From the NCBI GenBank assembly GCA_003963305.1, contig RXJR01000004.1, forward strand, positions 1 through 60,511: DNA of 60,511 bases. The letters run 5' to 3'. The translations under genes were made by a program, and so were the position numbers. Numbering within the stretch: the first letter of the stretch is position 1; every line of letters begins with the position of its first letter. Below are positions 1 to 53,832 of this stretch, piece by piece. The stretch is from Candidatus Melainabacteria bacterium. GTDB lineage: Bacteria > Cyanobacteriota > Vampirovibrionia > Obscuribacterales > Obscuribacteraceae. The notes under the pieces were generated by a model. It did no database searches, had not been told where the DNA came from, and saw only the letters and a program-made list of their open reading frames with translations.

Positions 1-191
1 TTCAGTGGCCGCGATTACCGATGTGAGTGGCCGTCAAGTGTGTTCTCGATGGCCGCCTGTTCTCGTTGCGGGTGGTCGCCCTGGCGCGAAATTCACAGAC
101 AGAGTTTCGGATTTTTCTGCGTGGACTCTGATCGCGCGCTGCGAAAGGGGTTCCTAGCGCATACGATTGTAATCCTATACGATGTGAGTGG
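1..191. repeat. Periodic GTGGCCG short repeats, possible IS21-type element end
   Basis: GTGGCCG or a one-base variant recurs at 5-11, 27-33, 49-55 (ATGGCCG) and 72-78 (GTGGTCG), a regular 22-23 bp spacing of about two helical turns. A 12-mer CGATGTGAGTGG at 19-30 recurs at 180-191. Regularly spaced internal repeats near the end are typical of IS21-family insertion sequences, where they bind the transposase; assigning this family is inference from memory. No istA/istB gene is visible, so the rest of the element, if any, lies left of the window. Confidence 0.35.
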
Positions 192-532
192 ATCATCATA
201 GCGAGCTTTAGATGCACAACCAGGGTGATGACGTGACGCCTGACTCTGTAAAACGTCTCAAATCAGTGACCTACTGCGCTCTTTTGTTGTTGACTCCATC
301 CGGGATAATGTGCACGGGAAAGGTGATAGCGCTGTCTGCGATGATAATGCCAAAGACCCTTGGGAACTTCGAATCGACTGCAGTTCCAGTATTTTAAATT
401 GGAACGAATTTTTCTATCTTCCTTCAAAAAATTACAAAGCCCAGGAAGGCGGTTTGGTGTAAAAGCACGGCGATTGGGCCGATTACCACGAATAACCCCT
501 CGGCCACGCCTGACAAAAGTTCTGATCCTTAC
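192..532. other. Intergenic stretch without a supportable gene
   Basis: Open frames here are short, lack a ribosome binding site and do not resemble any protein family I recognise. The segment lies inside the presumed integrated element, between the GTGGCCG repeats and the 3' end of the integrase gene. I see no tRNA, hairpin terminator or repeat in it. Confidence 0.4.
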
Positions 533-1732
533 TCAAAACAAACGTGCGTCATCGACGTCAAGTTCGGTGTACTTCCGTATTTGAGTTTCTGCGCTCTCCA
601 TGCCAAGTCTCACCGGGTCATGCATAAGCTTGGTGTAGATTTCAGTCGACGCCATAGACTTGTGTCCTAACGCTTGGCTAATGATCTTTATGTTTTGATT
701 GCTCATTGCCATATAGCTTCCTAATGTCCGACGCAAATCATGCAATCTCAAATCTGTTATTCCAGCTTTCTTTAGCATCCGCCGCCAGGCTTTCATCGGT
801 TCAACAAGATGGGAGCCCGGTTTCTTCCCTGGAAATACCCAAATGTTTGTGCGTGCTTCCCAACGTCGTCGAAGTAGATCCATAGCAGAAGAGGTCAACG
901 GCACATAATGAGATTCCTTGTTTTTGGTTTTCGGAATTCTCCAAACCGCGAGCTGAAAGTTGATATCCTCCCAGCGCATCTCAAGCACGTTAGTTCGTCG
1001 TGCGCCCGTGTACAGACTGATTAAAACGTAGTCCTGGAATGTCTCATCTTCTTGCTTCAGCGCCGCGAAGAACGCGTTCATTTCGTTGGGCATAAGGAAA
1101 CGTTCGCGCGGTTGGATCTTGTTCTGTTTTACGCCCGACCATGGGTTAGTCTCAATGACTCCATTCCGTATGTTCCAGTTCAGAGCCGCTCTCATCAAAA
1201 TCAGTAAATGATTTGCCGCCATCGGTCCGTTTTTCTGTCTCACTGCATTGAAGCGCGAAAGAACATCAAGTTTCGTAATTGAGGTATGTGGTCGGTTTCG
1301 CCAATCCCACACGTATCGCTTAAAGTCCTTGCGCATCTCTTCATGTCTTATGCAATGAATTGCAGCATGATTACTTATATACAGCTCAAACAACTCGTAG
1401 ACAGTTGGAATTTTAGGCGCTTCAACGGGGTCGGTGCACATCAGCGACTCTTGCAGTCGTTTTTCCGTTGGCAAGATCAAGCTTTCGTTCGCGATGTTGA
1501 AGAGAACTTCGCTAGCCTTCTTTCGAGCTTGCTCAATGCTCATCTCAGGATAACGGCCAATGTACACGCGAAGTCCTTGCCCCTTAACTTTGCGCCGCAC
1601 GTAAAACGACAGATTCTTGGTGCTGCGTCTGACTGTTAAATTCCTAATTTGTTCGTCGTAAAATTCAGCCTGGTCTGGTGACTTTGTTATTTCATCCAGC
1701 CTCTTCTGTGTGAAATTGAATCGCTTAGCCAT
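533..1732 (-). CDS. Tyrosine recombinase (integrase), P4-type
   Basis: A 399-residue site-specific recombinase that would catalyse integration and excision of the element to its left. The N-terminal ~90 residues resemble the arm-DNA-binding domain of P4-type integrases (DUF4102-like; RRSTKNLSFYVRRKVKGQG region). A core-binding SAM-like domain spans ~105-200. The C-terminal catalytic domain shows TGARRTNVLEMRW (first catalytic Arg), HDLRRTLGSYMA (the H-x-x-R box), then GHKSMASTEIYTKL with the box-III His and the nucleophile Tyr. All catalytic positions are present, so it is likely active. The ATG at 1732 has a weak GGGG-type ribosome site. It lies about 250 bp from a tRNA-Thr 3' half at 1980-2021 and reads away from it, the usual arrangement for an integrase beside its att site. 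Confidence 0.93.
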   Translation of the reverse strand: MAKRFNFTQKRLDEITKSPDQAEFYDEQIRNLTVRRSTKNLSFYVRRKVKGQGLRVYIGRYPEMSIEQARKKASEVLFNIANESLILPTEKRLQESLMCTDPVEAPKIPTVYELFELYISNHAAIHCIRHEEMRKDFKRYVWDWRNRPHTSITKLDVLSRFNAVRQKNGPMAANHLLILMRAALNWNIRNGVIETNPWSGVKQNKIQPRERFLMPNEMNAFFAALKQEDETFQDYVLISLYTGARRTNVLEMRWEDINFQLAVWRIPKTKNKESHYVPLTSSAMDLLRRRWEARTNIWVFPGKKPGSHLVEPMKAWRRMLKKAGITDLRLHDLRRTLGSYMAMSNQNIKIISQALGHKSMASTEIYTKLMHDPVRLGMESAETQIRKYTELDVDDARLF

Positions 1733-1830
1733 GATGCTTGCCCCGCATTGCTACACCACGAGATGTTCAATGGTGCCGAAAGAATAATGATGGAGCTGGA
1801 ATGTTTGACTGAAGTATGCGAAAGTTGTTC

Positions 1831-1849
1831 AGGACACTAAGAGGACACT
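1831..1849. repeat. Direct repeat AGGACACT x2, candidate integrase arm sites
   Basis: AGGACACT occurs at 1831-1838 and 1842-1849, an 11-bp period (one helical turn) in the same orientation. The pair lies between the integrase start (1732) and the tRNA-derived att core (1980). Tyrosine recombinases of temperate elements bind short direct repeats in this interval with their N-terminal domain. The repeat is directly seen; its role is inferred from position. Confidence 0.4.
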
Positions 1850-1979
1850 TTGTACAGAAAATTTCATCAATCAAGAGTGAATTTGATAAACATTAGAATC
1901 CAGCCCTAAAGCCAGTCTACACCGAAGAGTCGCAAATAAGCAACGTCTCCAGATGTCACCATATACGATACTAGTATTT

Positions 1980-2021
1980 TTCGTAAACCGTAGGTCAGGG
2001 GTTCGAATCCCCTCATCGGCT
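1980..2021 (+). tRNA. 3' half of tRNA-Thr(CGU): integration (att) scar, not a full tRNA
   Basis: The segment fits the 3' half of a tRNA: loop bases TT at 1980-1981, anticodon CGT at 1982-1984 (reads ACG, Thr), AA, 3' anticodon stem ACCGT (1987-1991), variable loop AGGTC, T-stem AGGGG / loop TTCGAAT / CCCCT, acceptor strand CATCGGC and discriminator T at 2021. The bases upstream (TAGTATT) cannot pair with ACCGT, and no GCCGATG 5' acceptor strand lies upstream, so the homology starts within the anticodon loop. This is what remains of the original 3' end after an element integrated at the anticodon loop and brought its own copy. The intact tRNA-Thr(CGU) is expected left of the window, at the element's other end. 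Confidence 0.8.
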
Positions 2022-2270
2022 AGGTTTTTAACAATCAGAGCCGGCTAATGCCCACAGGCGAACTCACTATGGCGACAAGGATGTCGCAGTGTGAACCAAA
2101 CTGTGTATCCTCGAGAACCTTGCAAGCATCAAACAATGAGGACATGATCCCCCAAGCAGGTCGAAGCCATTTATCGACGCTGGTAAAATGCTCAATCCCA
2201 GAGATCGCAGCTCGTGGACGTTGCCAAAACCTGAAAACTGTAAGTGATGGACGCCTGTTCGGCTAGTCCT

Positions 2271-2624
2271 TTAATTCCCAACACTTTTGCTTTTCGCAAC
2301 CGGCACCCTGCTATTCCGCATAGTTTCTAAAAGTTGACGTGGTCTGTTCAATGCTTGATTTAACTGCATCTTGTCTTGTGCAGTCAGCACATCCGCGTGC
2401 TGCTCTTTCAGTTTTCGCTTTAATTTACTAAACTCTTTCATCTCTTTATCAAGCTGTGCCGCCTGTTTTGCGGTGATTTCGCCTTGGTTTTTTGCGACAT
2501 TCACTTCACTCAAAAACTCTAATTGTTGTTCATCAATTTGATCAGCAATGGCATAAGTTGAAGAGCCAAGTAAAAACAGAGCGCACACAATCGCCTGGTA
2601 GTTGTATTTGTTTGTCATTGTCAT
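2271..2624 (-). CDS. Small exported coiled-coil protein, unknown
   Basis: A 117-residue protein with a plausible signal peptide: short polar N-terminus, hydrophobic core AIVCALFLLGSSTYA, then a likely cleavage site at AIA-DQ. The mature part is highly charged and helical (EFLSEVNVAKNQGEITAKQ..., LDKEMKEFSKLKRKLKEQ), so a short periplasmic coiled coil is likely. It has no Cys and no recognisable family. Two in-frame ATGs (2624 and 2618) are possible starts, and the ribosome binding site is weak. It is the first gene right of the att junction, so it probably belongs to the original chromosome. Function unknown. Confidence 0.55.
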   Translation of the reverse strand: MTMTNKYNYQAIVCALFLLGSSTYAIADQIDEQQLEFLSEVNVAKNQGEITAKQAAQLDKEMKEFSKLKRKLKEQHADVLTAQDKMQLNQALNRPRQLLETMRNSRVPVAKSKSVGN

Positions 2625-3180
2625 TCTCGATAATCGTCTCTAGTGTAGTCATTTTTTGGTGGCATTCACATGTTTTTGCAGAAAAATTGAAAACTACAAT
2701 TCAGCACATGCTTGCAAAAGTGCACCAATGCGAGCCTTTTGCGTCTTAGCCACTTGTGAGCGTGTGGGATCTTGATGAGTGCCAATGTCGTTTGCGCACA
2801 ATAAATGTGAACAAAGTTTAGAACCAAAACTCTGGCAAAACTCTCCGACTAGCCTAACGCAAAAGCTCAAATTATGTGTGCAATGTTCGTGTAGGCACGA
2901 AGATCACAAATTGCCTTCTTTTTCCCTCAAAAACGGACTTGCGATGCAGTTTTCGAACGTTCACTGTTGCTCAGATTAGATAAAAAGTGACTGTAAATAT
3001 TGCTCCTTTCCCTATAAACACCAGTAAACCTCGCACAAGCAGCAAAACTCTCGGAATGTGATAGGGACCACACTAGTTGGCCGGTGAATCGCATTTAAAA
3101 TTGGCTGTTAGCCGGCCAAAAACGATGCGAATATGTACCCGAAAGCTTTTCGGAACAACATCCGAATCATGTGAGGGGTA
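2625..3180. other. 556-bp gap, no gene supported
   Basis: AT-rich, with several 60-90 codon open frames that lack ribosome sites and do not look protein-like. I see no promoter, terminator or repeat that I would defend. The segment from about 3063 to 3180 may hold shredded remains of the gene whose last codons follow at 3181. Confidence 0.3.
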
Positions 3181-3306
3181 ATATTGGGAGCTGAAAAGTT
3201 TTACGCAAAGCGTGGAATTACTTTCAAGAGTACTGCCATCTACTGGGACGAAGATGGCCATGTGCCAGGTGTTAAAAGCAAATTCAAGGTTTGGGGAAAT
3301 CAGTGA
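3181..3306 (+). pseudogene. Probable C-terminal remnant of a toxin/secreted protein, coupled to the immunity gene
   Basis: From 3181 the frame reads about 41 protein-like codons (ILGAEKFYAKRGITFKSTAI, then YWDEDGHVPGVKSKFKVWGNQ) to a TGA at 3304-3306; an in-frame stop lies just upstream at 3172-3174. The stop overlaps the ATG of the SMI1/KNR4 gene (TGATG), the junction expected between a polymorphic toxin tip and its immunity gene. It may be the surviving end of a toxin whose body was lost. Alternatively a TTG at 3184 preceded by GAGGGG five bases upstream could start a 40-residue protein. Toxin identity is inference; no toxin fold is recognised. Confidence 0.45.
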
Positions 3307-3893
3307 TGAATGATGCTTTATCGAATCTAGTTTCGACACTCCAGCAGTGGGAGTGGGTTACAGAAGAGCAATTACTTGGATGCACTAATGAAGAGATAGC
3401 AGCATTGGAAGAACAATTTGCAGTGTCGCTTCCGGTCACGTACAAAGAGTTTCTTACAGTAATGGGAAAAGGTGCTGGACGTTTTGAGCGAGATGCTTCC
3501 TGGAAATATCATGCACTGAAACATGCCAGGGAGGAAGCGGAACACCTTCTTGCCGACATAGAGAGAATAAGAGGAGAAGAAGAAGAGGAACAAGATAACG
3601 ACGAAAACGCTGACAGTACAGATGCGTCTCCCAAAACCCTAAAGCCGCTCGTTCCTCTTAAACCAACGGATTTTGTCTTTTTGTGCGGCAGCTATAACTT
3701 CTTGTACTTCGATACCACAAAAGGTGACAACCCGCCGGTCCAATTGATTGAAGAATCTGAGGATGAGCCCAACACAACGTTTCCCTCATTCACCAATTGG
3801 CTCGAAGTCGTCGCACATTATGTCGCAAGAAACAGCAAAATTCTGAAAGACAGAAAAGCTGAATTGAAAGCGATGGGGATTGGTGGGGATTGA
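3306..3893 (+). CDS. SMI1/KNR4 family protein (candidate toxin-immunity protein)
   Basis: A 195-residue cytoplasmic protein with the SMI1/KNR4 core in its first ~65 residues: WVTEEQLLGCTNEEIAALEEQF followed by SLPVTYKEFLTVMGKGAG. A C-terminal half carries an acidic linker (EEEEEQDNDENADS) and the FVFLCGSYNFLYFDTTKGDNPP strand region. This superfamily is a common immunity-protein fold paired with nuclease and other contact-dependent toxins. I start it at the ATG at 3306, which overlaps the preceding stop in TGATG and has GGGG ten bases upstream; a TTG at 3291 is an alternative. With no intact toxin upstream, it is probably an orphan immunity gene. Family assignment is fairly sure, the immunity role is inferred. 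Confidence 0.8.
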   Translation: MNDALSNLVSTLQQWEWVTEEQLLGCTNEEIAALEEQFAVSLPVTYKEFLTVMGKGAGRFERDASWKYHALKHAREEAEHLLADIERIRGEEEEEQDNDENADSTDASPKTLKPLVPLKPTDFVFLCGSYNFLYFDTTKGDNPPVQLIEESEDEPNTTFPSFTNWLEVVAHYVARNSKILKDRKAELKAMGIGGD

Positions 3894-4236
3894 CCAAAAA
3901 TGACGTCACTGCATAGAAGTTGGCCAGAAAGCAATTCTGGAATGTTTCCGCCTGGTCCTTGAGAGCACTGAAAAATGCACTAAATTCTGAACCGCCGAAA
4001 TCTTAGAATCGCTCCCGTCGAACTTTCATTTAAGTCCACGTTGCTCATTCAATACTTGCTAGACCATTAACTAGCAGGAGTGCGGAGAAACTCAAAATAA
4101 GGAACTTGTATTTCATAGACAGGCAACTTAAATAATCGCATTATGTGCCCTAACTCAATATTTTCCATCCTGACTCAAAATAGACTAATAGCCAAGAACC
4201 CATCTCAAAATCATGGCACATAAGTAGGGTGCCTTT
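3894..4236. other. 343-bp gap with one very weak small ORF
   Basis: Nothing firm. On the minus strand 4067-4168 encodes 33 residues beginning MENIELGHIM and ending FLRTPAS; its ATG has only AGG directly abutting, so I do not call it. No terminator-like hairpin was seen between the convergent neighbours. Confidence 0.25.
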
Positions 4237-4860
4237 TCAGATGGCGCTTTGCCGCAACGGATCTTCGCAATCCACGTCTTTCTCTACGAACTTCTTGTCG
4301 AGTGCATCAACTCCAAATTTGATTTTGTATTCGCGTTCAGCTTTCGTTATTGGTATCAGCCACAAAAAATGGACTTTCTTTTTTTCTATATTTGCCCATT
4401 GAACCTTGGCACCCTCCATCGTCGACAAAATGCCATAATCGCATCGAGATCCTGGTAACCATGGCCTTCCGAAATTGACTGTATGCCCACTGTCGAGATG
4501 TTCACCGGTCAAATGGAAGTGCGCAATAGCATAAAAGAGTTCGACTAATTCCGGCGCCTTCTTTGGCGAGATCAAGAACACTTCGATCGGTTTCGAGTCG
4601 CCAAATGACATGCCGCAAGTAGCGTATATCCATACTTTACTCTTGCTTCCAGGGGGGACTTCGAAGACGCAGAAATCGTTGGGTAACTGATGTACGGGAC
4701 CTTTGTCGAATTTTATTGCAGTAGCTGTGCTACCAAAGGCTGTCTCGTAATGCTTTTGAATTTCCAGCGAACGTGGTGACAACATGGCTTCAACTCGCAT
4801 AAATGTGGTACCGAAGGCCAAAAGAAAAAGACTAGTTAAAATCGCACGATTCAATAGCAC
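4237..4860 (-). CDS. Suppressor-of-fused (SUFU)-like domain protein with an N-terminal signal-like segment
   Basis: Residues ~34-190 read like the bacterial SUFU domain: HYETAFG start, PIEVFLISPKKAPELVELFYAIAHFH, GEHLDSGHTVNFGRPWLPGS, and the closing VHFLWLIPITKAEREY. SUFU-domain proteins are a known immunity superfamily of polymorphic toxin systems. The 207-residue frame from the GTG at 4860 (GGA ten bases upstream) adds a segment (AILTSLFLLAFGTTFMRVEA) that looks like a cleavable signal peptide. If the true start is the internal ATG at 4785, the protein is cytoplasmic like most relatives. I keep the long form because its ribosome site is no worse. It lies in the immunity-gene block; the partner toxin is not seen. 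Confidence 0.75.
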   Translation of the reverse strand: MLLNRAILTSLFLLAFGTTFMRVEAMLSPRSLEIQKHYETAFGSTATAIKFDKGPVHQLPNDFCVFEVPPGSKSKVWIYATCGMSFGDSKPIEVFLISPKKAPELVELFYAIAHFHLTGEHLDSGHTVNFGRPWLPGSRCDYGILSTMEGAKVQWANIEKKKVHFLWLIPITKAEREYKIKFGVDALDKKFVEKDVDCEDPLRQSAI

Positions 4861-4987
4861 TCTATAGTTCCACTTGCTGACATTTATACGGTACCAGCTT
4901 TTTTGAAGAAGCGCGACATATCGTCTGGGCGAAGAAAACGCTCCCGAGCCTGGTCAACCATCGATTGAGTGGATGAAATCTTTGCGG

Positions 4988-5398
4988 CTATTCTCCTAAC
5001 AACTCATATTGCCTGTCCGATGATGAGTATTTACTCTTCCGCAATTTGAGATATCCTTTTACGACGAGATCATCAAGTACAGTCTTCACGCTTCTTTCTG
5101 TATGCGAGCCCATAGAGCGAGACTCCATGAACCACTTGAGCCTCCAGGGAGTCAAAACTTTTACACCGGTAATAAATTCCTCGACGTCAACTTCAGTACC
5201 ATCGTTCTTGGATACGAATCTAACTCCTGTTCCGTGTCGATTAAACAACCAGTCTCCTCCGCGGAGGCGGATGCACCCTTGTGGAGGTATAGCCTTTGAT
5301 ATAAGCTTATCTGGGTCGGCCGCCGCAGGATATTCTGAAAACAGTTGCTTGAGAAGGGCTTCTTGTAACTCCAAGAATTCCCGCACAACTGGGACCAT
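4988..5398 (-). CDS. DUF6896-like protein, candidate immunity protein
   Basis: A protein of about 136 residues from the ATG at 5398 (GGAA just upstream); a TTG at 5419 would add seven residues. The N-terminal helix (VVREFLELQEALLKQLF) is followed by GGDWLFNRHGTGVRFVSKNDGTEVDV, whose R-H-G-x-G-V-x-F pattern I associate from memory with DUF6896, a family found near polymorphic toxins. The C-terminal third (TERSVKTVLDDLVVKGYLKL) is helical. It lies tandem with the SUFU-like gene on the same strand, about 130 bp upstream. No signal peptide or Cys-rich motif. The family call is moderate, the function unproven. Confidence 0.6.
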   Translation of the reverse strand: MVPVVREFLELQEALLKQLFSEYPAAADPDKLISKAIPPQGCIRLRGGDWLFNRHGTGVRFVSKNDGTEVDVEEFITGVKVLTPWRLKWFMESRSMGSHTERSVKTVLDDLVVKGYLKLRKSKYSSSDRQYELLGE

Positions 5399-5531
5399 GC
5401 TTTCCAATTCTAAGTGCAATTATCGTCCACCCACATAAAACAAACTCTAACACTACCAAAAACCATGAATCATTATCTTTTCAAACTTAGGAAAGCGACA
5501 TCCTATCTAAATTTCACCCAGACCAAAACTT

Positions 5532-6050
5532 TCAGGTGTTGAAAGGGAAATAAATCGTATTCCAAATATCAAAAACGTTTGTTATACACGCGTCAGTACA
5601 AAGAACTGCATTCGGAGCGTCTTTCCCACCGAATGGTATTAAGACGACAAGAAGAAAACATGGGTCATTTTTATCAACTCTCAAAAGATTCGCTCGTTGT
5701 TCCGCGGTTACAGCTCTTGCCTGCGCCTGCGAATTCTTCTGTGAATCATCATTCAAATATCGCAACTTCCTCAGCGTTTCCAGATTTATCATTGATAGGT
5801 TTGCAGGATCAATATCAACTGACAGCACGTAAAAATAAAAGCTGTGTCTGCTGAAGTAGTCTCGACTCTTCTCTAACAGCGATTCGTTCTCTATAAGGAA
5901 CAGTCCGTGAGATTTGCAGAGCAATTGAATTTCCCGCAAAATCTTGTCAAAACACTTAGATTCAATTTTTTGATACAACAACCAGTCAACGTCCTGATAG
6001 CGAATATTTGATTTCGCGTGCGCGATCAACGGATCTGATTCGGTTGACAT
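5532..6050 (-). CDS. Hypothetical protein in the immunity block
   Basis: A 172-residue soluble protein starting at an ATG at 6050 with no clear ribosome site. It has alternating helices and strands: DWLLYQKIESKCFDKILREIQLL, a FYFYVLSVDIDP strand, and a hydrophobic C-terminal strand CFLLVVLIPFGGKDAP. No signal peptide or known motif. I do not recognise the family. Its size, strand and place between candidate immunity genes suggest a similar role, but that is guilt by association. Confidence 0.55.
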   Translation of the reverse strand: MSTESDPLIAHAKSNIRYQDVDWLLYQKIESKCFDKILREIQLLCKSHGLFLIENESLLEKSRDYFSRHSFYFYVLSVDIDPANLSMINLETLRKLRYLNDDSQKNSQAQARAVTAEQRANLLRVDKNDPCFLLVVLIPFGGKDAPNAVLCTDACITNVFDIWNTIYFPFNT

Positions 6051-6279
6051 GGATCAATACACATCCAATGGCGCTATGACATCAGCATAACACGTTTGTT
6101 TTCCGGTCATCGTTGCGCTTCCGCTTAGGGCTCGAGTCTCGTGCCATCAATAACTCAAAAATAGTTTTTCAGCTGATCTTCACTAAAAAGTCAGTAGAAC
6201 AGTGGCAGCTGTACAGAGAAAACCAATGCCACTAATGGACTTCTCAAAATTCCATAAAATCAAAGACAGGAAGCAAAAA

Positions 6280-7074
6280 CTATAATTTAAGGGTCTTTAT
6301 TCCTTTGTCGCTTTTTAGCAATGCGTAAGAGTCTTCGAGCTCACTTATCTTTTCCAATCCTCTTATTTCAGTTAGGACTACCTGCGGTTTTACATAGCAT
6401 CTTATGTTAATTACGAAATGACCATTTTCAAAAAAGTGATCCGCCACAAACCCATACTCTGAACTCTGTAGCAATTCATCTAACTGGTCCTGCAACCGGA
6501 CAAGATACAACCGTCCAACATCCGTATTTAACTCGTCAGATAATTTACAGTGTAGTTCAATTTCTGGTAATTGCTTTTGCGGTTTGCGATTAAAAGTTAA
6601 CTCGTCCATCCTTAAAATAGCCTGAGTCAGCAACTCTCTTTGCTTAAGAGCCATATTTGGCAATAGTTCTAACAATGGGCGTGAATTCAACTTTAATGTT
6701 CGACAAACGTGCAGAGCCATTATAAATAGAGTTCTGGTGAGCAGCAGTTGAAGGTCTGATTGATTTAAACCCAACCAAGAATTTCTGCTTACCGGAAAGG
6801 TAATGCGCAATCCAAGTCCTTGAGCGTCACGTGCCTCTCGATAATGTATTGAAGGTAAATGGGCAAACACAGTGGAATCATCTTTTCCAGGAACGTAACC
6901 GTCTATCATGAAGTGAAAGCAAATGTTTTCATATTTAGTTTTATTCGAAAAATCGGTTGCTTCAAATGCTTCAAGAACTGGTTCAAACAGGGGTCCGCAG
7001 CTTAGGGCCGTTGTCATATTTTCGTCTGAGAATTCTGGCGTTGCAATTATTGTATACAGGTTGTCAAACTTCAT
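6280..7074 (-). CDS. Hypothetical protein A of a tandem paralogous pair
   Basis: 264 residues, clearly related to the neighbour at 7401-8192. Shared order: I-A/T-C-x-x-P near the N-terminus; a LEAFEATDFSNKTKY block; F-x-I-D-G-(Y/F)-x-P-G-K-(D/E)-D; a LP-x-I-H-Y block; V-C-R-x-L-x-L-N; LLELL; and a YNRK/TYNRR turn. The start is the ATG at 7074 with AGAGG six bases upstream. That ATG overlaps the stop of a weak upstream frame (ATGA). No signal peptide or membrane segment, and no family recognised. Tandem duplication of a medium-sized cytoplasmic protein is common in immunity loci. Confidence 0.65.
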   Translation of the reverse strand: MKFDNLYTIIATPEFSDENMTTALSCGPLFEPVLEAFEATDFSNKTKYENICFHFMIDGYVPGKDDSTVFAHLPSIHYREARDAQGLGLRITFPVSRNSWLGLNQSDLQLLLTRTLFIMALHVCRTLKLNSRPLLELLPNMALKQRELLTQAILRMDELTFNRKPQKQLPEIELHCKLSDELNTDVGRLYLVRLQDQLDELLQSSEYGFVADHFFENGHFVINIRCYVKPQVVLTEIRGLEKISELEDSYALLKSDKGIKTLKL

Positions 7075-7343
7075 ACAGGACCTCTGAGCGAAGGAGAGCG
7101 AGTACCCGGCGGAGCCGTGCTGATGTAGGTGTACGAAGGAATGGGACTCCTCAAGTTATTGCCATTAACAGGTGTGTTCGAAACCTGAAAAGCATATGCT
7201 CTCTTCCACGCAAAGTCTGGAGATTTCTTTGATGACACCAGACAAATGGAAACCTGCCAGCTAGCCTGAGGATTGTCGAACGGACACACAAAAGAAACAT
7301 GTAAATTGAAGAGTGAAATAGAATCATGCAACTGTGGATCCAC
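7071..7343 (-). CDS. Weak ORF ahead of paralogue A, possible remnant
   Basis: A 90-codon frame from a GTG at 7343. Its last part (VNGNNLRSPIPSYTYISTAP, then PGTRSPSLRGPV) looks somewhat protein-like, and its TGA overlaps the next ATG as ATGA, typical of translational coupling in toxin-immunity pairs. Against it: no ribosome site, a stop four codons upstream of the GTG, and an unconvincing N-terminal half. It could be the decayed end of a toxin gene or chance. Confidence 0.25.
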   Translation of the reverse strand: MDPQLHDSISLFNLHVSFVCPFDNPQASWQVSICLVSSKKSPDFAWKRAYAFQVSNTPVNGNNLRSPIPSYTYISTAPPGTRSPSLRGPV

Positions 7344-7400
7344 CGGAGTCTAATCAAACCGAGACGATTCGGCGCAAAAAACCTGTGCAACACGGGATAT

Positions 7401-8192
7401 CTACTTGATTTGAACTTTAGTATATTCCTTGGCGGTTATAAGGGTGGCCTGTACATTCTGCCATCCGGTCATCGGTAGGTCTTTTAAGGCAGTTAACGCC
7501 TTGTTCGGCGCGTCATAACAATTGCAAAATACGGTGAACACATTATTGCCCACCTCGTGCCCTTCCACATAACCGAGTCCTGTTGCCTGCAAATGTTCAT
7601 CAATGGCGTCTTCCAATCTCCAGGACGGTCGAGGATCCGTGTAATAATTCGTCGTCTCAGTCATCTCAAATTCTACTTCTAATTCATTTTTCTGTTTGGC
7701 AACACGTCTATTGTAAGTAAGAGTATCTAGATTGCGCAATTCCAGTTGAATTTTACGCCTGTCTACTTCATCAACCTGCGTTTCTAATAACTTGAGTAAT
7801 CCACGGTAATTGAGTCGCAAATATCGGCACGCATGTACACCGGCAAGAAACAACTTACAAAAAAACAAGTGCTCCAGTTGACTCGGAGCGGCAATGTCTA
7901 TCCAATCTTCTCTCTTGATTTTGAGGCTCACCCACAAAGCATTACCATTTTCAGTTCGACTCTCTTTATAGTGAATGTCTGGAAGATCATGAAAGACAGT
8001 GTCTTCTTTTCCTGGCGAGAAGCCGTCAATTTGAATAAAGAAATTGACAAAATTGTATTTAGTCCTTTGAGCAAAGTCACTTAATTCAAAGGCGTCTAGA
8101 ATGCGATTAAGGCTTGGTTTCGCTGCAAATTCAAATGCTTTCCAAGTTGGTTCAGCGCAAGTGACGATATTATATTGTGTTTTTTCTGCCAC
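7401..8192 (-). CDS. Hypothetical protein B of a tandem paralogous pair
   Basis: 263 residues from a GTG at 8192 preceded by TAGGA nine bases upstream. Paralogue of 6280-7074, sharing the ILDAFELSDFAQRTKY, FIQIDGFSPGKEDTVF and DIHYKES blocks, the ACRYLRLNYRGLLKLLE helix and the TYNRR turn. The C-terminal third (WRLEDAIDEHLQATGLGYVEGHEVG) is the most divergent between the two. Cytoplasmic, no known motif. The stop of a decayed upstream frame lies only 11 bp before its start, so it was once the distal gene of a two-gene unit. Function unknown, immunity role suspected. Confidence 0.65.
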   Translation of the reverse strand: MAEKTQYNIVTCAEPTWKAFEFAAKPSLNRILDAFELSDFAQRTKYNFVNFFIQIDGFSPGKEDTVFHDLPDIHYKESRTENGNALWVSLKIKREDWIDIAAPSQLEHLFFCKLFLAGVHACRYLRLNYRGLLKLLETQVDEVDRRKIQLELRNLDTLTYNRRVAKQKNELEVEFEMTETTNYYTDPRPSWRLEDAIDEHLQATGLGYVEGHEVGNNVFTVFCNCYDAPNKALTALKDLPMTGWQNVQATLITAKEYTKVQIK

Positions 8193-8203
8193 GATTCCAA
8201 ATC

Positions 8204-8540
8204 CTATAGTGAACCTAAGAACAGGGCAATGTAATCAGCATCATTCCTGCGCTCACGCATCAAATCTATCACTGCCAGCGCCTCATGCTGATCCCAGACA
8301 TTATGCTTCCGCACGAATTTTGGGAACAATAGCAATACTGATTGGCATTTATGATTCGCTCGTACGCTTTTATAGTGATCCAAAAATCCTTATACAATTT
8401 TATCAAATTCCTGAAACAGCGACAGATTCGACCATTAGGAGTAGAACTGAATCTTCGGTGTTTGTCCATGTGTCTACTTCTTGGGGGAAAGTCCAAATTC
8501 GGATTTGGACAGGCAGATCACATGTGCAAGAAAAGAACAT
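8204..8540 (-). pseudogene. Frameshifted remnant upstream of paralogue B
   Basis: Three protein-like stretches follow each other on the minus strand in different frames: CDLPVQIRIWTFPQEVDTWT onward (start near the ATG at 8540), then NLIKLYKDFWITIKAYERII, then FVRKHNVWDQHEALAVIDLM running to ALFLGSL and a TAG at 8204-8206. The final stretch is convincing coding sequence and ends 11 bp before the next gene. Simplest reading: a gene with at least two frameshifts. The long plus-strand frame over the same DNA (8101-8709) is then a shadow. The family is not recognised. Confidence 0.45.
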
Positions 8541-8786
8541 TTTAGGCTATGTAGAACACAAAGCATTAATACTAAACATCAGGTATGCCAAATACGTACC
8601 TAAAAGCTTAAGCAAAAGAAAATTGAGTTCAACTGTCGATCTGAAAGTTCGACTTAGCGATGCGAAACAAGGAAAGCGCGGCGAAGCACAGTTTGCACTT
8701 CGCAGTTAAACAAGCGCTATATCATCCTCACCGGCATAAATGACTATTCTCGTAGCAGCTTTTATTGCCTGTCCCAAGATGTAAAT
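8541..8786. other. Gap with possible further remnant
   Basis: The minus strand from about 8700 to 8556 is open and ends in a hydrophobic run (LNFLLLKLLGTYLAYLMF) but has no start signal. It may be the front of the decayed gene that continues at 8540, or noncoding. Confidence 0.2.
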
Positions 8787-9374
8787 TCAACTCGAAGAGG
8801 TTGGTGTGTCCAATGAATGTTTGTCTTTGTCCTTTGACCTGTTTTTAAAAGCGTCCGCCAGATAACGCAATGTCTTTTGATGCTCAATCTCTGCCTCAAC
8901 GAAATTATCAAACTGCGGATTATAAATAACCTCTTCTGTTGGCAGGAATTCAAGAACTGGCTCATCGCCGGCAGGGGACGGCTCGAAGTTGCCTGTCAAC
9001 AGAATCCTTTTCTGTAGAAAGAGCGCCAACCGCTTCAGTAAGGCTAAAAGATTTTCTATTGATTCTGAGGTCTGGTAATCACACGGCTCGATAAAAATTC
9101 TTATCTCATTCGACAAGTGGAAATACATACGAAATTCTAGTCCAGCGATTTCACAAATAATCACCGCACCGGATCCGACCAAATTACTCACCCAGGCTTC
9201 CGTTATCTCCGTTGGTAAGTCTTTGAGGGCTCCGGATCCCAATTGCAGCGTAATTGAATCCGCTCGATCTTGAAAAAAATGTACGGACTGTTTGAAATCT
9301 GAATCCGTAACGTGTGGAATACGCAACATCCGCACGTCACGGTCGTCAATGAAAATTGAACTGTACTTGTGCAT
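8787..9374 (-). CDS. Hypothetical protein in the immunity block
   Basis: 195 residues from the ATG at 9374. Soluble, with alternating strands and helices: DSITLQLGSGALKDLPTEI, VIICEIAGLEFRMYFHLS and ENLLALLKRLALFLQKRIL, then a charged Ser/Lys-rich tail. The layout (a short strand-rich domain with an acidic loop) is like small immunity proteins, but I recognise no family. A duplicated 17-bp sequence lies just upstream (9394-9427). The start lacks a clear ribosome site. Confidence 0.55.
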   Translation of the reverse strand: MHKYSSIFIDDRDVRMLRIPHVTDSDFKQSVHFFQDRADSITLQLGSGALKDLPTEITEAWVSNLVGSGAVIICEIAGLEFRMYFHLSNEIRIFIEPCDYQTSESIENLLALLKRLALFLQKRILLTGNFEPSPAGDEPVLEFLPTEEVIYNPQFDNFVEAEIEHQKTLRYLADAFKNRSKDKDKHSLDTPTSSS

Positions 9375-9393
9375 GAAATATGCTACTTGCGAG

Positions 9394-9427
9394 CCGAAAT
9401 AGGTGTGGGGCTGAAATAGGTGTGGAA
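9394..9427. repeat. 17-bp tandem direct repeat upstream of the 9374 start
   Basis: GAAATAGGTGTGG occurs from 9396 and again from 9413, each preceded by C/T-rich CCG or CTG, giving a 17-bp period. It sits 20-55 bp upstream of the minus-strand gene starting at 9374, where an operator or promoter element would be. Seen directly; role unknown. Confidence 0.4.
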
Positions 9428-9583
9428 CCGGATTATGATTAAATCATATTACACCCAAACTACCACAGTCTTCCTTTCCACTGAGAGATTGTCTGAAAGA
9501 TCTGAAAGTGTCTCAAATACATACATCAACGGCTTTGTCGTACTACAAAAAATGATTTCGAACTGATACCGCCAAAAGAAAGT

Positions 9584-9614
9584 ACCCACGAACGCCTCTT
9601 AGGTGTTCGTAGGT
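9584..9614 (-). terminator. Stem-loop, possible terminator of the EF-Tu-domain-like gene
   Basis: ACGAACGCCT (9588-9597), loop CTT, AGGTGTTCGT (9601-9610) form a 10-bp stem with one G-T pair; ACC/GGT extends it by three pairs across a mismatch. Reading on the minus strand, a T-rich run (ACTTTCTTTT) follows within a few bases. It lies about 70 bp past the stop at 9681. Confidence 0.5.
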
Positions 9615-9680
9615 TCAATGGAAATTCGAATTCTCTCCTTCATTAACAAGAGTGCCGTATTTGAACTCCTAATTGAAAAT

Positions 9681-9968
9681 CTAACTATTACACTGATCAA
9701 CTGAGCCAGTAACGACAATCCTAGGGCCTTCCGTAAAATGAAAAGTAGAGTGTACTCTCAACTTTTTTGCAACTTGATCAGGGCTAAGAAATTCTATTTT
9801 TACACCAGAGCGCGTATCTCCGGGATAAATCAAACCGCCGCTGAATGTCACATAACAGTCCCAATGTTCGTTTTCAATCAACATTGGACACTGATATCCA
9901 CTTTTGATTGGTCCTCTTCTTCCGCCTTTCGCTACGAGAGTAATGGTAGCTATTATCGAAAACATCAT
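9681..9968 (-). CDS. Isolated EF-Tu domain-3-like protein
   Basis: A 95-residue protein matching the order of motifs in the third domain of elongation factor Tu: G-G-R-x-x-P-I-x-S-G-Y (GGRRGPIKSGYQCPML), a YVTFSGG strand, P-G-D-T, a V-x-I-E-F-L-S-P-D strand, F-H-F-T-E-G-P-R and V-V-T-G-S-V. In EF-Tu this beta-barrel contacts tRNA and EF-Ts. Here it stands alone with no GTPase domain; free-standing copies are known in various bacteria, usually without assigned function. I start at the ATG at 9968, six bases after GGAG; an ATG at 9980 would add four residues. In an immunity-gene block, a decoy against EF-Tu-binding toxins is conceivable but speculative. Confidence 0.7.
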   Translation of the reverse strand: MMFSIIATITLVAKGGRRGPIKSGYQCPMLIENEHWDCYVTFSGGLIYPGDTRSGVKIEFLSPDQVAKKLRVHSTFHFTEGPRIVVTGSVDQCNS

Positions 9969-9995
9969 TTCATTCTCCATTCGCTAATATGAAGC

Positions 9996-10331
9996 TTACG
10001 GGAGCGGCGAATTATTATAGATCTTTGGAATCAATCCAACCAGATCTTCACCTTCAACATAAATCGTCTGTATTACCGAATTCCACGTGTCATGCCATCC
10101 ATACGATGCAAAGTCACCTATGAAGAGGCGAGCATCAGTACGATGTGCAATTCAACAACTTGCAGCCTAAACTCACAATAGAACCTAGTGCGAAGACAGC
10201 AATTGTTATCCGCCAAAACTTAAGACAGCATTACTTATGACACGTAGTGAAAATAAGTCGATGTTTTCGTAATTAATTCGTCTGACGACGAATGCAGTTA
10301 GAGCCAGAAAACCGCTCAGGACAACGGACAC
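9996..10331 (-). pseudogene. Frameshifted remnant of a membrane-associated protein
   Basis: On the minus strand three coding-like pieces follow in different frames: VSVVLSGFLALTAFVV plus RRINYENIDLFSLRVIS from a GTG at 10331; WRITIAVFALGSIVSLGC; then IGDFASYGWHDTWNSVIQTI and YVEGEDLVGLIPKIYNNSPL ending at TAA 9996-9998. The last piece is convincing and stops 15 or 27 bp before the two candidate starts of the EF-Tu-domain-like gene, as in an operon. Two hydrophobic segments suggest an inner-membrane N-terminal part. Probably a gene broken by frameshifts; family unknown. Confidence 0.4.
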
Positions 10332-31970: not shown

Positions 31971-34718
31971 CTACCCCATGGCGCCAGCAAACAGAGCCCG
32001 GTGCGACTCCTCGGTTAGAAGCTGTTCTTTAGTCAGCGCGCTGTTCAATTGCATGATACGAGCAATCAGCCCAGTCCATCCCGTTTGATGGCTGGCTCCG
32101 ATGCCGGCGCCGTTGTCGCCATGGAAATACTCATAGAACAAGACCAAATCGCGCCAATGCGGATCGGTCTGGAATTTCTCTGAGCCACCATAGACGGGGC
32201 GGCGACCATCTGATCCTTTCAAAAATATCGAGGAGAGACGATTGCAAAGCTCCGTAGCCACTTCGAAGAGAGTCATCTCGTTTCCAGATCCGGTCGGGCA
32301 CTCGATTTTGAATGAATCACCATAGTAGGAATAGATATTCCAGAGCGACACCAGAAGCAGTGCATTCACCGGCATCCAGATCGGACCACGCCAGTTGGAG
32401 TTGCCACCAAACATACCTGTGTCTGATTCACCGGGCAGATAGCCGACTCGAAACTCCTGCCCGCCATGCTTAAATACAAATGGATGATCTTGATGGTGCC
32501 TCGACAGCGACCGAATTCCGTAAGGGCTGAAAAACTCGCTTTCGTCGAGCATCCGAGACAGCGTGCGCCTCAGTTTAGCCTCGCTGAATAGCGACAGCAT
32601 GCGCCGGTTCTTCACTCCTGGCTGAGTTGGGTCATGCATATTGCCCCAGAGTTCAGGATGTCGCGACAGAAACTCCTGACTCTGTTTAGCAAAAGTGGGA
32701 AGTTTTTCGAGATTTTTCTCTTCAATAACGACAATCGCCGATAGTGGCAACAACCCAACCATCGATCTCACTTTCAGGCGAAGTGAATGCCTATTCGGCA
32801 GGCGCAAAACGTCGTAGAAGAAACCGTCTTCCTCATCCCACAACTCATCGCTGTGTTCGCCGAGCCGGTCCATCGCCCCACCAATCCACAATGTATGCTG
32901 GAAAAACTTCAAGGCAAAGTCTTCATAGAGCGGATCGTGCAGTGCCAATTCGATAGCGATTCGCAACATCTGTTGGCTGAACAAAACCATCCACGCCGTT
33001 CCGTCAGCCTGTTCGAGACGCCCTCCAGTCGGCAATGGTGAACTGCGGTCAAACACGCCGATGTTATCCAAACCAAGGAATCCGCCTTCGAATACGTTGC
33101 GCCCGGTTGGATCCTTGCGGTTAACCCACCAGGAGTAATTGACCATCAATTTCGTAAATGCATACTTGAGGAAATCGATATCGCCCTTGCCACCTTGACG
33201 TTCTTTGTCGTGCAAGTAAATCTGCATGGTTGCGAAGGCGTGCACTGGCGGATTGACATCACCAAAGTTCCATTCATAAGCCGGCAGTTGACCGTTGGGA
33301 TGCTGATAGTCGTTGCGCAACATCAAGTCGAGTTGTTGCTTGGCGAAGTCCAGGTCGACCATACCCAGCGCCACCGTGTGAAAAGCCAGGTCCCAAGCCG
33401 CATACCATGGGTATTCCCACTTATCCGGCATCGAAATAACGTCTTCGTTATACATATGATGCCAGCCGCTATTTCTCACCTTACCCAGATTTTCGTGGTC
33501 CTGCAAAAAGTCGGCATTGTGATCTTTCAACCAGCGATCGAGATCGTAGTAGAAATACTGCTTGGACCAGAGCATACCCGCGAGCGCTTGACGAAACACA
33601 TTGGCTTTATCGGAATCAGATTTGATATCTGGTGGCATAATCGAATTGTAGAATTCATCTGCTTCATTCTTTCTCTGCCGAAATACGTCTTCAAATCCCT
33701 TGAATGGCTCTGCAAGCTGCTGGGGAGCAGACAGGCTCAGTCGCAAACAAACAGACTCGGAGCTTCCAGCTGCCACCATTAGTTGATAATGAGGTGACAC
33801 CTTGGTGCCCATATCCGAATTGACAGCGGCACTCTGCTTGTGAACAACGTAATTATTGATCCCATCTTTCACATAAGCACTTGTATTGGGCGTGCCGAAA
33901 AGACGCGCGTTGTTGGTTTCATTGTCACAGAAGAGCAATGGAGCGTCGCCCTGGCAATACAGATAGTAGTCAACCATAGACTCCTGAAACAACGGATCTG
34001 TATGGTGAGCATGAACAATACTGTGTGGCGAACCGGGAACACTTCGCATAACGGGTTTAGAACCACCCTCTGCCCAGGACCAGGTATTGCGGAACAACAG
34101 AGTCGGCAAGACATGGAGCGGTGCAGCGTCGGGTCCCCGATTAAAAGCCGTGATTTTGATCAGAATGTCTTCCGGAGCAGCTTTCGCATATTCGACAAAG
34201 ACGTCGAAATAACGATCGTCGTCGAATATTCCCGTATCGAGAAGCTCAAACTCCAGCTCATGACGGCTACGCTTCCGGTTGGTGTTGACCAACTCAGCGT
34301 AAGGAAATGGACGTTGCGGGTACTTGTACAAGTACTTCATGTAGGCATGCGCGGGCGAGCTATCGAGGTAAAAGTACTGTTCCTTTACATCCTCGCCATG
34401 GTTACCTTCGCTGTTTGTCAGTCCGAAGAGCCGCTCTTTTACAATCGGGTCCTGCCCGTTCCATAAAGCCAGAGAAAAGCACAAAATTTGATGGTCATCG
34501 GAGATTCCGGCCAGACCATCCTCGCCCCATCGATAGGCACGGGAACGTGACTGGTCGTGAGAGAAATAGGCCCAGGCATCGCCATTATCGCTGTAATCTT
34601 CGCGAACTGTGCCCCACTGGCGCTCACTCAGATATGGTCCCCACTTCTTCCAGTTCTCTTTGCCTGTGCGAGCCTGTTCGAGTCGCTCTAATACGCTTCT
34701 TGCTGCATTCCTGGCCAT
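31971..34718 (-). CDS. GH63-like glucosidase (MGH1-type)
   Basis: 915 residues from an ATG at 34718 with AGGGGA four bases upstream; an ATG at 34733 lacks a site. The N-terminal beta domain ([40 protein letters not shown]) and the (alpha/alpha)6 catalytic barrel ([74 protein letters not shown]) match bacterial GH63 proteins annotated as glucosidase or mannosylglycerate hydrolase. The acidic residues in YAAWDLA and GESDTG are candidate catalytic acid/base. No signal peptide, so a cytoplasmic substrate such as a compatible solute or glycogen-derived oligosaccharide. Convergent with efp, 20 bp apart. Confidence 0.9.
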
Positions 34719-34897
34719 AAGTTCCCCTGACATGTGCTGGTGCCGCAGAAAATATACCTCAGCAGTCGGCGCAAATCAGCAAAAGATCGACAATCGGCTA
34801 CACATCGCAACGTTAGGAAGACTAGACCATGGAGACTAAAACAGACAAAATGTCTATCTGCCCAGTCCGTGCGTGTTCCGCAACCAAAACAATTCGA

Positions 34898-35668: not shown

Positions 35669-35722
35669 GAAGATTATCCTTATGAATTCAATTGCAATTG
35701 CAATACTACTGCATTGTGCGCA

Positions 35723-36937: not shown

Positions 36938-36967
36938 GATGCTCTCACCTCCAGTCGATCTAACGCT

Positions 36968-38506: not shown

Positions 38507-38833
38507 ATGTGACCTACCAACTCACCTGCCCATTTTACAAGTTTCTCGCCGAACCTTTCGATTATGACCCGCCTCTCATGCACCTTTCGTCACTGTGTAA
38601 TCCGCAAAACGTAGAGAACGACAATCCAAGTTGATCAAACACTCAGCGCGAATGTGCCCGGCTCGAATGCATTGACCGACTATTGCAGCCTCATAGTCAC
38701 CATATACAGTGTCACCAAATGCCTTGTAGACAGAAATAGCAAAGCGATAAATACAAGCCAAAATACAAGCAAAAACACGCTCCAGAAACCGCAAACCAAA
38801 GCTCGCTTCAGAAACTGAGAACCAGCCTGATAT
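38507..38833. other. 327-bp gap with only a doubtful small ORF
   Basis: A 72-codon minus-strand frame (38576-38794) starts at a TTG with no ribosome site and I do not call it. No repeats or clear terminator found. Confidence 0.3.
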
Positions 38834-39832: not shown

Positions 39833-39941
39833 TCGAGTCTATGTCAATAATCAAATGTCTGGATTCCACTTATTCCAATTACATTGATTCTTGCACACCC
39901 GGTTAAGGTGGTCCAATAAAACGACTCGAACGCCGCGAGAA

Positions 39942-40995: not shown

Positions 40996-40998
40996 TAC

Positions 40999-41808: not shown

Positions 41809-41939
41809 TTGCGACCTTCCTTGTAACTCTGAAACTTTCGGTACATACCTAATAGAATTTTTTCTTTTTGGCAGCTTAAAGTTGTCATCCCAGCGGATAC
41901 TTTTGATCATCCTTTCGGATGACACTAAAAGTCTTCACG

Positions 41940-42095: not shown

Positions 42096-42098
42096 AGG

Positions 42099-42881: not shown

Positions 42882-43001
42882 CGGGTAACTCCATCGTCGC
42901 CTTGGCGCAGGAACCTTTACGGTCCTGCAAATTTAGCACAGCAGAACCGACACAACTACCAGGGCAGTCCACATAAATTGATTGTGCTCCATGCGCTCTA
43001 C

Positions 43002-52563: not shown

Positions 52564-53828
<1,265 letters not shown>

Positions 53829-53832
<4 letters not shown>

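Follow-up and report, generated by a model that had tools for sequence, protein, structure and literature searches.

A candidate orphan poly-immunity array near a tRNA-Thr fragment in Candidatus Melainabacteria

In a genome of Candidatus Melainabacteria bacterium, we identified a 7-kb segment (positions 3181-10331 of the window, the window being the whole stretch of 60,511 nucleotides that was analyzed) containing eight small ORFs with intact frames, including genes of the SUKH, SUFU and DUF6896 families, and stubs of further genes between them. We interpret this array as an orphan poly-immunity locus at a spent integration site, which successive island insertions and cassette displacements would have assembled and worn down, an interpretation that in our judgement has about an even chance of being correct. 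The eight ORFs are:

3291-3893, plus strand: SUKH (SMI1/KNR4) protein; PF09346, E 5e-13; coding score 0.243
4237-4860, minus strand: SUFU protein; PF05076, E 4e-13
4988-5419, minus strand: DUF6896 protein; PF21837, E 9.7e-19
5532-6050, minus strand: 172-aa protein; small family, two relatives found within the taxonomic family
6280-7074, minus strand: paralogue A, 264 aa; no relatives found besides B; codon pattern
7401-8192, minus strand: paralogue B, 263 aa; no relatives found besides A; codon pattern
8787-9374, minus strand: 195-aa protein; no relatives found; coding score 0.146
9681-9980, minus strand: 99-aa ORF; sub-threshold match to EF-Tu domain 3; coding score neutral

The SMI1/KNR4-, SUFU- and DUF6896-like proteins named in the first-pass annotation all score above the Pfam cut-offs: the SUKH protein with 50.2 bits (cut-off 25.4; profile 1-124 of 125 covered), the SUFU protein with 50 bits (cut-off 25; profile 9-170 of 172) and the DUF6896 protein with 68.2 bits (cut-off 27). 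The top plasmid relatives of the SUFU protein align from its residue 34, and its true start may be M26. Together the three genes span 2.2 kb, and SUKH and SUFU face each other across a gap of 343 bp. According to excerpts of the literature, these two are established immunity superfamilies of polymorphic toxin systems, SUFU being listed in both homo- and heterogeneous poly-immunity loci (PMC3482391); with SUKH and SUFU, at least two recognized immunity superfamilies thus adjoin, as is expected of a poly-immunity locus. Genome-wide counts gave one DUF6896 match and three SUKH matches in 7.48 Mb, and none of 31 other window ORFs scanned (part of the window's ORFs) matched any of the three families; the cluster therefore stands out from the background.

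For seven of the ORFs, the coding score was positive in the ORF's own frame and negative in each of the five others. The genes measure 99-264 codons, and seven lie on the minus strand; the co-orientation noted earlier is therefore real but not special, as nine main ORFs (antisense ORFs inside them excluded) form a minus-strand row at 31971-45587. The G+C content of the array is 0.425; each of 172 overlapping segments of the same length in 10540-60511 has a higher value. In agreement with the first-pass annotation, which saw no complete toxin, none was recognized in the array segment, and searches for Rhs cores came up empty in the window as well as on contig C4, which carries the array. A Rhs relic in the window was also rejected, the six-core profile giving no match and the Rhs protein of contig C9 a best E of 2.0. 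A search for array DNA in the genus, which has two further genomes, found nothing beyond an IS-end repeat in one of them (G002). G001 has a citrate synthase gene of 92% identity whose listed neighbor ORFs differ, so an empty site could not be shown.

To the left of the array lie the remains of an integration event:

533-1732, minus strand: tyrosine integrase, 399 aa; Pfam Arm-DNA-bind_3 and Phage_integrase; PHROG integrase
1979-2022, plus strand: 3' fragment of tRNA-Thr(CGU), anticodon loop to 3' end; attR-like scar

All 44 nt of the fragment match the tRNA-Thr gene on contig C9 exactly, where ARAGORN finds this gene intact, and the 23-nt core of the fragment occurs in three copies in the genome. 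The tRNA integration site proposed earlier holds in that integrase and fragment are real; neither ARAGORN nor Rfam gathering scores gave a tRNA gene at the array, however, and the orientation of the fragment places the integrase's element to its left, with the array outside. The DNA left of 1979 thus resembles an island at a tRNA gene, having the 3' fragment and an integrase while the intact tRNA lies elsewhere. The window contains one att copy (up to 3 mismatches allowed), and on its left side the integrase is 532 bp from the contig start, for which reason the link between the array and the Rhs contigs is indirect.

These Rhs contigs, C9 and C14, come from the same genome; both contain the same tRNA-Thr sequence, and together they carry seven of the genome's eight Rhs cores. 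C9 encodes an intact Rhs protein of 1969 aa, whose gene is followed by a 311-aa ORF, while C14 carries Rhs ends plus its own integrase, 57% identical to that of the window. A repeat common to the left ends of C9 and C14 (97% over 273 bp) can explain the contig breaks and joins neither contig to C4. Counterparts of the eight array proteins were not found on C9:1-149999 or on C14. The decayed frames reported between the array genes could be assigned in part to integrases, an IS element, a HEPN gene, DUF6896 and a gene end:

3078-3138, no strand assigned: IS-element end relic; dispersed end repeat with matches in G002, G025 and G027
3175-3306, plus strand: tail of an upstream ORF, open for 43 codons, from six-frame translation of the sequence
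3910-4104, minus strand: second integrase relic, weak, with in-frame stops; tblastn E 3.7e-4 with the window integrase
4890-4952, minus strand: C14-type integrase relic; 76% identical over 21 aa, E 4.5e-5
8225-8362, minus strand: HEPN-like gene relic; 62% identical over 47 aa to a C9 protein, E 1e-13
8744-8781, minus strand: second DUF6896 gene, relic of its 3' end; 38 nt with 82% identity to 4988-5025
10186-10280, minus strand: 95-bp gene-end copy; 97% to the 3' end of the 311-aa ORF on C9

The relic at 4890-4952 gave a 53-bp DNA alignment to the C14 integrase with a score of 31 (best of 300 shuffles 16). For 3910-4104, shuffles reached the DNA score in 5 of 300 cases (window integrase) and in 190 of 300 (C14 integrase). 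The DUF6896 relic, just behind the stop of 8787, scores 24 (best of 500 shuffles 17, the pair having been preselected from the repeat list and the value left uncorrected). The C9 counterpart of the HEPN relic (L020:738-1238) matches HEPN at E 2e-4 with 21.9 bits (cut-off 22), and the HEPN relic and the 95-bp gene end keep the order and orientation of the C9 genes behind the Rhs protein. At another locus (L012), the repeat of 3078-3138 lies ~190 bp from a transposase ORF; judging by eye, we take the relic to be IS21-like and the transposase to be IstA. Toxin domains were not recognized among ten ORFs from the decayed stretches: nine had no Pfam match at E <= 1, and the TMEM9 match of the tenth (E 0.05) was read as chance. 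ORFs 7071-7343 and 7151-7393 were rejected as genes, their coding score looking non-coding.

The likely start of the SUKH gene is 3306, where its ATG (3306-3308) overlaps the TGA (3304-3306) of the 43-codon tail by one base. The idea that the array was kept after loss of its toxins finds one direct hint in this tail, possibly the remains of a toxin gene, but the tail has no identifiable relative: in 50 genomes of the taxonomic family only sigma-70-like matches were obtained (E 0.087-0.097, 5 genomes), and a toxin identity was dropped, Pfam and plasmids giving no match.

As first suggested, the products of 5532, 6280, 7401 and 8787 could not be assigned to a family; Pfam, NCBIfam, PADLOC and PHROGs gave at most matches read as chance. 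The tandem pair 6280/7401 was likewise confirmed, with 33% identity, and its differences fall mainly on third codon positions (184 vs 144 and 120, over 261 codons), a pattern suggestive of purifying selection since the duplication, which speaks for past selection and has no bearing on the present. Searches of 50 family genomes, a collection of genome contigs and viral contigs gave no relatives of the pair, and plasmids none of 6280. A match at E 9.9e-4 among 386 genomes of the phylum contains two stops and was discarded as chance, as were a Pfam match of 6280 at E 0.14 and 31-36-bp DNA matches inside 7401 in three genomes of the order (E 7e-5 to 8e-4), whose loci have no protein match at E <= 1e-3. 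The structure predictions proposed for these proteins were obtained for the pair and 8787; that of 8787 was useless (pLDDT 36.9), while the two-sequence model of the pair reached a mean pLDDT of 57.7. In the PDB, the pair model had no match at E <= 0.001 (best 0.017), and the weak matches include some ferredoxin-like folds, so that the C-terminal half may possibly be ferredoxin-like. For 5532, codon positions in its family again suggest selection, past selection and not evidence of a present one; plasmids hold no relatives. In a check of gene neighborhoods, neither of its two relatives lay beside a recognized toxin. No relatives of 8787 occur in the 50 genomes or in viral contigs; an alpha_tmRNA match at 8901-9013 (E 0.003, 22 of 50 bits) was rejected because it is antisense inside the 8787 coding frame. 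The EF-Tu-domain-3 assignment of 9681 could not be upheld, its match to PF03143 (E 0.0095, residues 9-70 on profile 8-69 of 106) reaching 16.7 bits (cut-off 27), and relatives of 9681 are absent from plasmids and viral contigs.

The array could instead consist of foreign small ORFs from island turnover that are no longer selected and have no function. About 35% of the segment lies outside the eight ORFs, which fits such an origin, as do the low G+C, the stubs of integrases, IS, HEPN and DUF6896, the isolation of the pair and 8787, and a 5532 relative (G027) split over two frames by a frameshift or an assembly error. The eight intact frames, seven with clear coding signal, argue against it, as does the selection pattern in the pair and the 5532 family, within the limit that this selection is past; overall we consider this explanation somewhat unlikely.

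A second alternative concerns the nature of the proteins. Of 50 genomes from the taxonomic family, 38 have SUKH, both other genus members included and often in longer frames, and none of 30 SUKH loci (of 101 matches) had a Rhs core within ~1.5 kb; SUKH is thus often not Rhs-linked in this clade. These counts would suit general protein-interaction or regulatory roles for SUKH, SUFU and the others rather than toxin immunity. We hold this to be decidedly improbable given the clustering of SUKH with SUFU and DUF6896, the small size and the mobile setting, as well as the effector genes adjoining SUFU relatives and, as excerpted, the literature on the superfamilies (PMC3482391). Among plasmid relatives of the SUFU protein, the top-ranked one comes immediately after a DUF4123-domain gene, itself preceded by a PAAR gene, and another lies ~2 kb behind a MafB toxin gene; from ten SUFU plasmid records, seven contexts were viewed, and five of these had no annotated polymorphic toxin within 3.5 kb. 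A DUF6896-like plasmid gene adjoins an Imm51 gene, and the other three of four DUF6896 plasmid contexts lack an annotated immunity or toxin gene. A literature search for DUF6896 found no paper. Plasmid relatives of the SUKH protein of the array were not found. An anti-phage defense island, to which the integrase at the tRNA fragment, the HEPN relic and the family-less proteins could also belong, is extremely improbable, as seven of the eight proteins lack a PADLOC match at E <= 0.1 and the single match, of 5532 to HEC-02B (E 0.03, 11.4 bits), was read as chance.

In the poly-immunity interpretation, islands with P4-like integrases would have entered the tRNA-Thr(CGU) gene again and again, and toxin-immunity cassettes of Rhs or similar effectors would have been gained, displaced and deleted at the site, so that small immunity genes remained beside remnants of integrases, IS elements and neighbor genes. 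At least SUKH and SUFU, and probably also DUF6896, would be cytoplasmic inhibitors that bind and block the incoming toxin domain and so shield the cell from neighbors or kin still carrying the toxin; possibly, the array is still protective today. The interpretation draws on the clustering of three families, the rarity of SUKH and DUF6896 in the genome, the effector genes near SUFU relatives and the DUF6896-like gene beside Imm51, on the C9 counterparts behind Rhs, the Rhs cores on the tRNA-Thr contigs and the C14 integrase, and on the integrase and DUF6896 stubs, the array DNA missing elsewhere in the genus and the third-position excess of the pair. Weighing against it are the lack of a cognate toxin, the clade's SUKH loci without Rhs, the mostly toxin-free SUFU and DUF6896 contexts, the 5532 relatives away from recognized toxins, the indirect link to the Rhs contigs, and C9:1-149999 and C14 without counterparts of array proteins. 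The bank of immunity genes first proposed is supported for SUKH and SUFU, plausible for DUF6896 and putative for the four family-less proteins.

A wider proposal, in which the array is an acquired interbacterial defense locus formed through tRNA-Thr/Rhs island turnover and, in addition, 6280/7401, 5532 and 8787 represent three new immunity families, every one with a distinct fold and matched to a Rhs tip that still circulates in relatives, is quite unlikely to hold as a whole. If the array is what we propose, a non-photosynthetic cyanobacterial lineage joins the carriers of immunity arrays, and the by-products of array formation are visible in one place beside one tRNA fragment. The array would then also provide four candidate immunity proteins (5532, 6280, 7401 and 8787), with the Rhs ends on C9, C14 and C26 of this genome as candidate toxins. 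In our literature search, Obscuribacterales and Rhs were not named together by any paper, and one listed paper names Melainabacteria and polymorphic toxins together.

The following comparisons refer to extracts of the cited sources. Like published poly-immunity loci (PMC3482391), the array has immunity genes of different superfamilies next to each other; unlike them, it includes families without known immunity members, four family-less proteins and many gene stubs, on a contig without an intact Rhs core. The array resembles the recombinase-associated acquired interbacterial defense (rAID) arrays of Bacteroidales (PMC12247911, preprint) in lying near a tyrosine recombinase, in its SUKH member, in its short genes (99-264 codons), seven of eight co-oriented, and in a G+C below that of its surroundings. 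It differs from rAID, and does not qualify as such, in that the integrase lies downstream in the sense of transcription, across the att fragment, whereas the rAID recombinase is upstream; in that three of eight genes, with 42.5% overall, are below the 41% G+C under which rAID genes fall; in its host phylum, Cyanobacteriota; and in the conserved intergenic motifs of rAID, none of which was found here, no repeat being common to at least three intergenic spaces among the 20 of 46 direct-repeat families listed, a listing that could miss gapped or very degenerate motifs. Compared with the type VI immunity arrays of Vibrio cholerae, which arise by effector displacement (PMC5361080), our array has no recognized intact effector at its head, as judged from Rhs cores sought over contig C4 and on a contig that begins 532 bp left of the integrase, but it resembles them in the piling up of varied immunity genes as effectors go, and a displaced 3' end is described there as well. 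C9, unlike the array, keeps an intact Rhs protein; what the array shares with the C9/C14 Rhs loci are its counterparts of the C9 HEPN gene and of the end of the 311-aa ORF.

Eight small open reading frames (ORFs), named here by their start positions, fill 65% of positions 3181–10331 on contig C4 (620 kb), which belongs to a genome of 7.48 Mb in 44 contigs. The window comprises bases 1–60,511 of this contig, and the genome is that of a member of Cyanobacteriota, probably from a non-photosynthetic lineage of the Obscuribacterales type. Three of them exceed the Pfam cut-offs, namely 3291 (SUKH), 4237 (SUFU), and 4988 (DUF6896), in agreement with the families assigned in the first-pass annotation, which was also right in finding no complete toxin. 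The eighth ORF, 9681, gave a sub-threshold Pfam match to EF-Tu domain 3, and no family was found for 5532, 6280, 7401, and 8787 in Pfam, NCBIfam, PADLOC, and PHROGs scans. With hexamer coding scores for which 18 other window genes served as the training set, we obtained positive values in the proposed frame and negative values in the remaining five frames for seven of the eight ORFs, 9681 being neutral. The tandem paralogues 6280–7074 (264 aa) and 7401–8192 (263 aa) share 33% identity and differ at 144, 120, and 184 first, second, and third codon positions, respectively (261 codons), which is the pattern of apparent protein-level selection after duplication. The 172-aa product of 5532 has a full-length relative with 36% identity in genome G436, while a second relative, in genome G027, lies in two frames; between these two relatives, 106 codons show 14, 8, and 38 differences at positions 1, 2, and 3, respectively. 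The features discussed below are listed here.

Features in and around the array (window positions unless another locus is named; strand where assigned)
2271–2624, minus strand: small, secreted-looking ORF of 117 aa, with Pfam rows below cut-off only
3078–3138: insertion sequence (IS) end repeat, common to three other genomes
3910–4104: candidate second integrase relic (protein E 3.7e-4)
4890–4952: fragment of an integrase gene of the C14 type (E 4.5e-5; 53-bp alignment with a score of 31, best of 300 shuffles 16)
8225–8362: HEPN-gene relic, with 47 aa aligned at 62% identity to an intact protein of contig C9
8744–8781: copy, with 82% identity, of the final 38 nt of the DUF6896 gene, ending at the stop codon
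10186–10280: copy, with 97% identity, of the 3' end of a 311-aa ORF of contig C9
27639–30236, plus strand: three tandem DUF4240-domain genes (277, 334, and 178 aa; Pfam)
19–9785 of locus L020 (contig C9, 55000–74999), minus strand: intact Rhs protein whose N-terminus gives a transglutaminase-like match

Structure prediction for the tandem pair returned a low-confidence model with a mean pLDDT of 57.7, where ten-residue blocks from residue 171 onwards range from 54 to 82. The C-terminal half of the model has the predicted order strand, helix, strand, strand, helix, helix, strand, and its weak matches include ferredoxin-like folds among others. No usable model was obtained for 8787. The earlier suggestion of new immunity folds ran ahead of the evidence.

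The array is a real cluster, above background. SUKH has three matches in the genome and DUF6896 one, and neither these families nor SUFU appeared in a Pfam scan of 31 further ORFs of the window, a subset of those present. The G+C content of the array is 0.425 versus 0.483 for 10540–60511, lower than in any of 172 equally long, overlapping segments of that region. The common orientation of its genes, which had been mentioned in the first reading, is not exceptional in the window. The three DUF4240 genes were the sole other small paralogous cluster seen among the 31 scanned ORFs and are possibly another bank of small genes; they lie in a second low-G+C pocket (0.440). Farther along, at about 53570–53610, a trinucleotide repeat encodes a Thr run in ORF 52564–53832 and an Asn run in the overlapping ORF 53535–54221. 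Array DNA found no match in the genus's two further genomes except the IS-end repeat in G002, and SUKH genes are present elsewhere in both.

The tRNA integration site proposed beside the array proved imprecise: ARAGORN found no tRNA in the window, and what is present is an integrase (533–1732) and, at 1979–2022, a 44-nt stretch identical to the part of the C9 tRNA-Thr(CGU) gene between anticodon loop and 3' end. A 23-nt core of this sequence occurs three times in the genome, on C4, in the intact gene on C9, and on C14, where it likewise adjoins an integrase, 57% identical to that of the window. In tRNA integration, a rightward-reading 3' fragment forms the right end of an element to its left. 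By this rule, fragment 1979–2022 would be the right-hand boundary of an element on its left, which runs off contig C4, and the array would lie outside the element of the visible integrase. The 117-aa ORF is situated between the att fragment and the array.

Relics of other genes are interspersed in the array. Besides the integrase piece at 4890–4952, the region 3910–4104 may be a second integrase relic; its DNA-level score was equalled by 5 of 300 shuffles against the window integrase and by 190 of 300 against the C14 integrase. Immediately behind the stop codon of 8787, the repeat at 8744–8781 reached a score found in none of 500 shuffles, a test uncorrected for the choice of this pair from 46 repeat families, and a second DUF6896 gene probably stood there formerly. 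A 43-codon ORF tail precedes the SUKH gene, and its TGA shares one base with the SUKH ATG. Toxin-immunity pairs usually show such stop/start coupling. The tail found no relative except sigma-70 matches at E about 0.09. The IS-end repeat, which we take to be IS21-like, is dispersed among several genomes of the family (loci L005, L006, L007, L011, and L012, in addition to the window), with runs of degenerate copies in L007 and L012 and a transposase ORF nearby in L012.

Two relics suggest a link between the array and an Rhs locus of the same genome. Contig C9 encodes an intact Rhs protein of 1969 aa (Rhs_assc_core, E 5e-22); behind its gene, all on that strand, come a 153-aa ORF, the 311-aa ORF, a DUF7079 gene, and a HEPN gene. 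The 153-aa ORF directly behind Rhs is an unassigned immunity candidate. The 311-aa ORF end and the HEPN relic keep the order and orientation of the C9 genes in the window. Their very unlike identities (97% for DNA, 62% for protein) argue against a single event. Eight Rhs_assc_core matches were found in the genome, five on C9, two on C14, one on C26, and none on C4, and C9 and C14 are the two contigs besides C4 with the tRNA-Thr sequence. This association is suggestive; across the contig breaks, the sequences may form one island. The eight array proteins have no counterpart on C9 (1–149999) or C14, where the best chance rows had E 0.17 and 0.29. In L020, the small genes that trail the C9 Rhs protein number five, DUF7079 and HEPN among them. 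Five Rhs cores lie within about 90 kb of C9 (2623–91958), with open frames up to 2728 aa, and ORFs resembling an integrase and a relaxase, judged by eye, are found just beyond (L054 and L055). Locus L021 (C14, 1–13927) is an element that has an integrase of the tRNA-Thr type of its own and two Rhs core ends, with no Rhs gene of full length: an orphan Rhs-tip store.

Ten plasmid records match SUFU, and seven contexts were viewed, two Neisseria and a second Moraxella record being left out. In Sphingomonas hankookensis, the relative (45% identity, 84% covered) stands right behind a PAAR gene and a DUF4123-domain gene of 3.3 kb, with tri1 one gene beyond, and the Moraxella relative has a MafB toxin gene some 2 kb upstream; five Streptomyces contexts showed no annotated toxin within 3.5 kb, in a plasmid gene table incomplete by its own description. 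DUF6896 has four weak Streptomyces plasmid matches (30–32% covered), one adjoining an Imm51 gene and all with a transposase gene within 3.5 kb. For 5532, no evident toxin gene was seen by eye in the 20-kb ORF list around the G027 relative, two neighbors of which were scanned with Pfam, nor was a toxin recognized on the 7.6-kb contig of the G436 relative (L045, G436:C467). The latter carries LysM, DUF5677, and NADAR genes, another mixed small-gene neighborhood. None of 30 fetched SUKH loci (of 101 matches) had an Rhs core within about 1.5 kb, using a profile that, in that search, did pick up the cores of C9 and C14. The refuting outcome named in the first-pass annotation, homologues of the unknown genes that never stand beside toxins and have other established functions, thus did not come about, and support is limited.

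In our literature searches, no publication naming Obscuribacterales together with Rhs was found; one paper naming Melainabacteria and polymorphic toxins jointly was found, and the combination of orphan immunity, integrase, tRNA, and Rhs led to one Pantoea genomics paper. The majority of known polymorphic-toxin immunity proteins, including SUKH and SUFU, are described in PMC3482391 as cytoplasmic and globular. According to a preprint on the Bacteroidales rAID system (PMC12247911), SUKH orphan immunity proteins protect against a type VI effector via high-affinity binding, and do so despite strong divergence from the cognate protein. The array is not a rAID system: it differs in the position of the recombinase and exceeds the G+C limit, and no conserved motif between genes was seen among the 20 direct-repeat families listed of 46. 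The preferred reading of the array is a decaying orphan poly-immunity locus at an integration hotspot. For the immunity arrays of Vibrio cholerae, PMC5361080 proposes that incoming effector-immunity modules displace old effectors while the immunity genes stay, and the window locus has the by-products to be expected of this displacement combined with integrase insertion.
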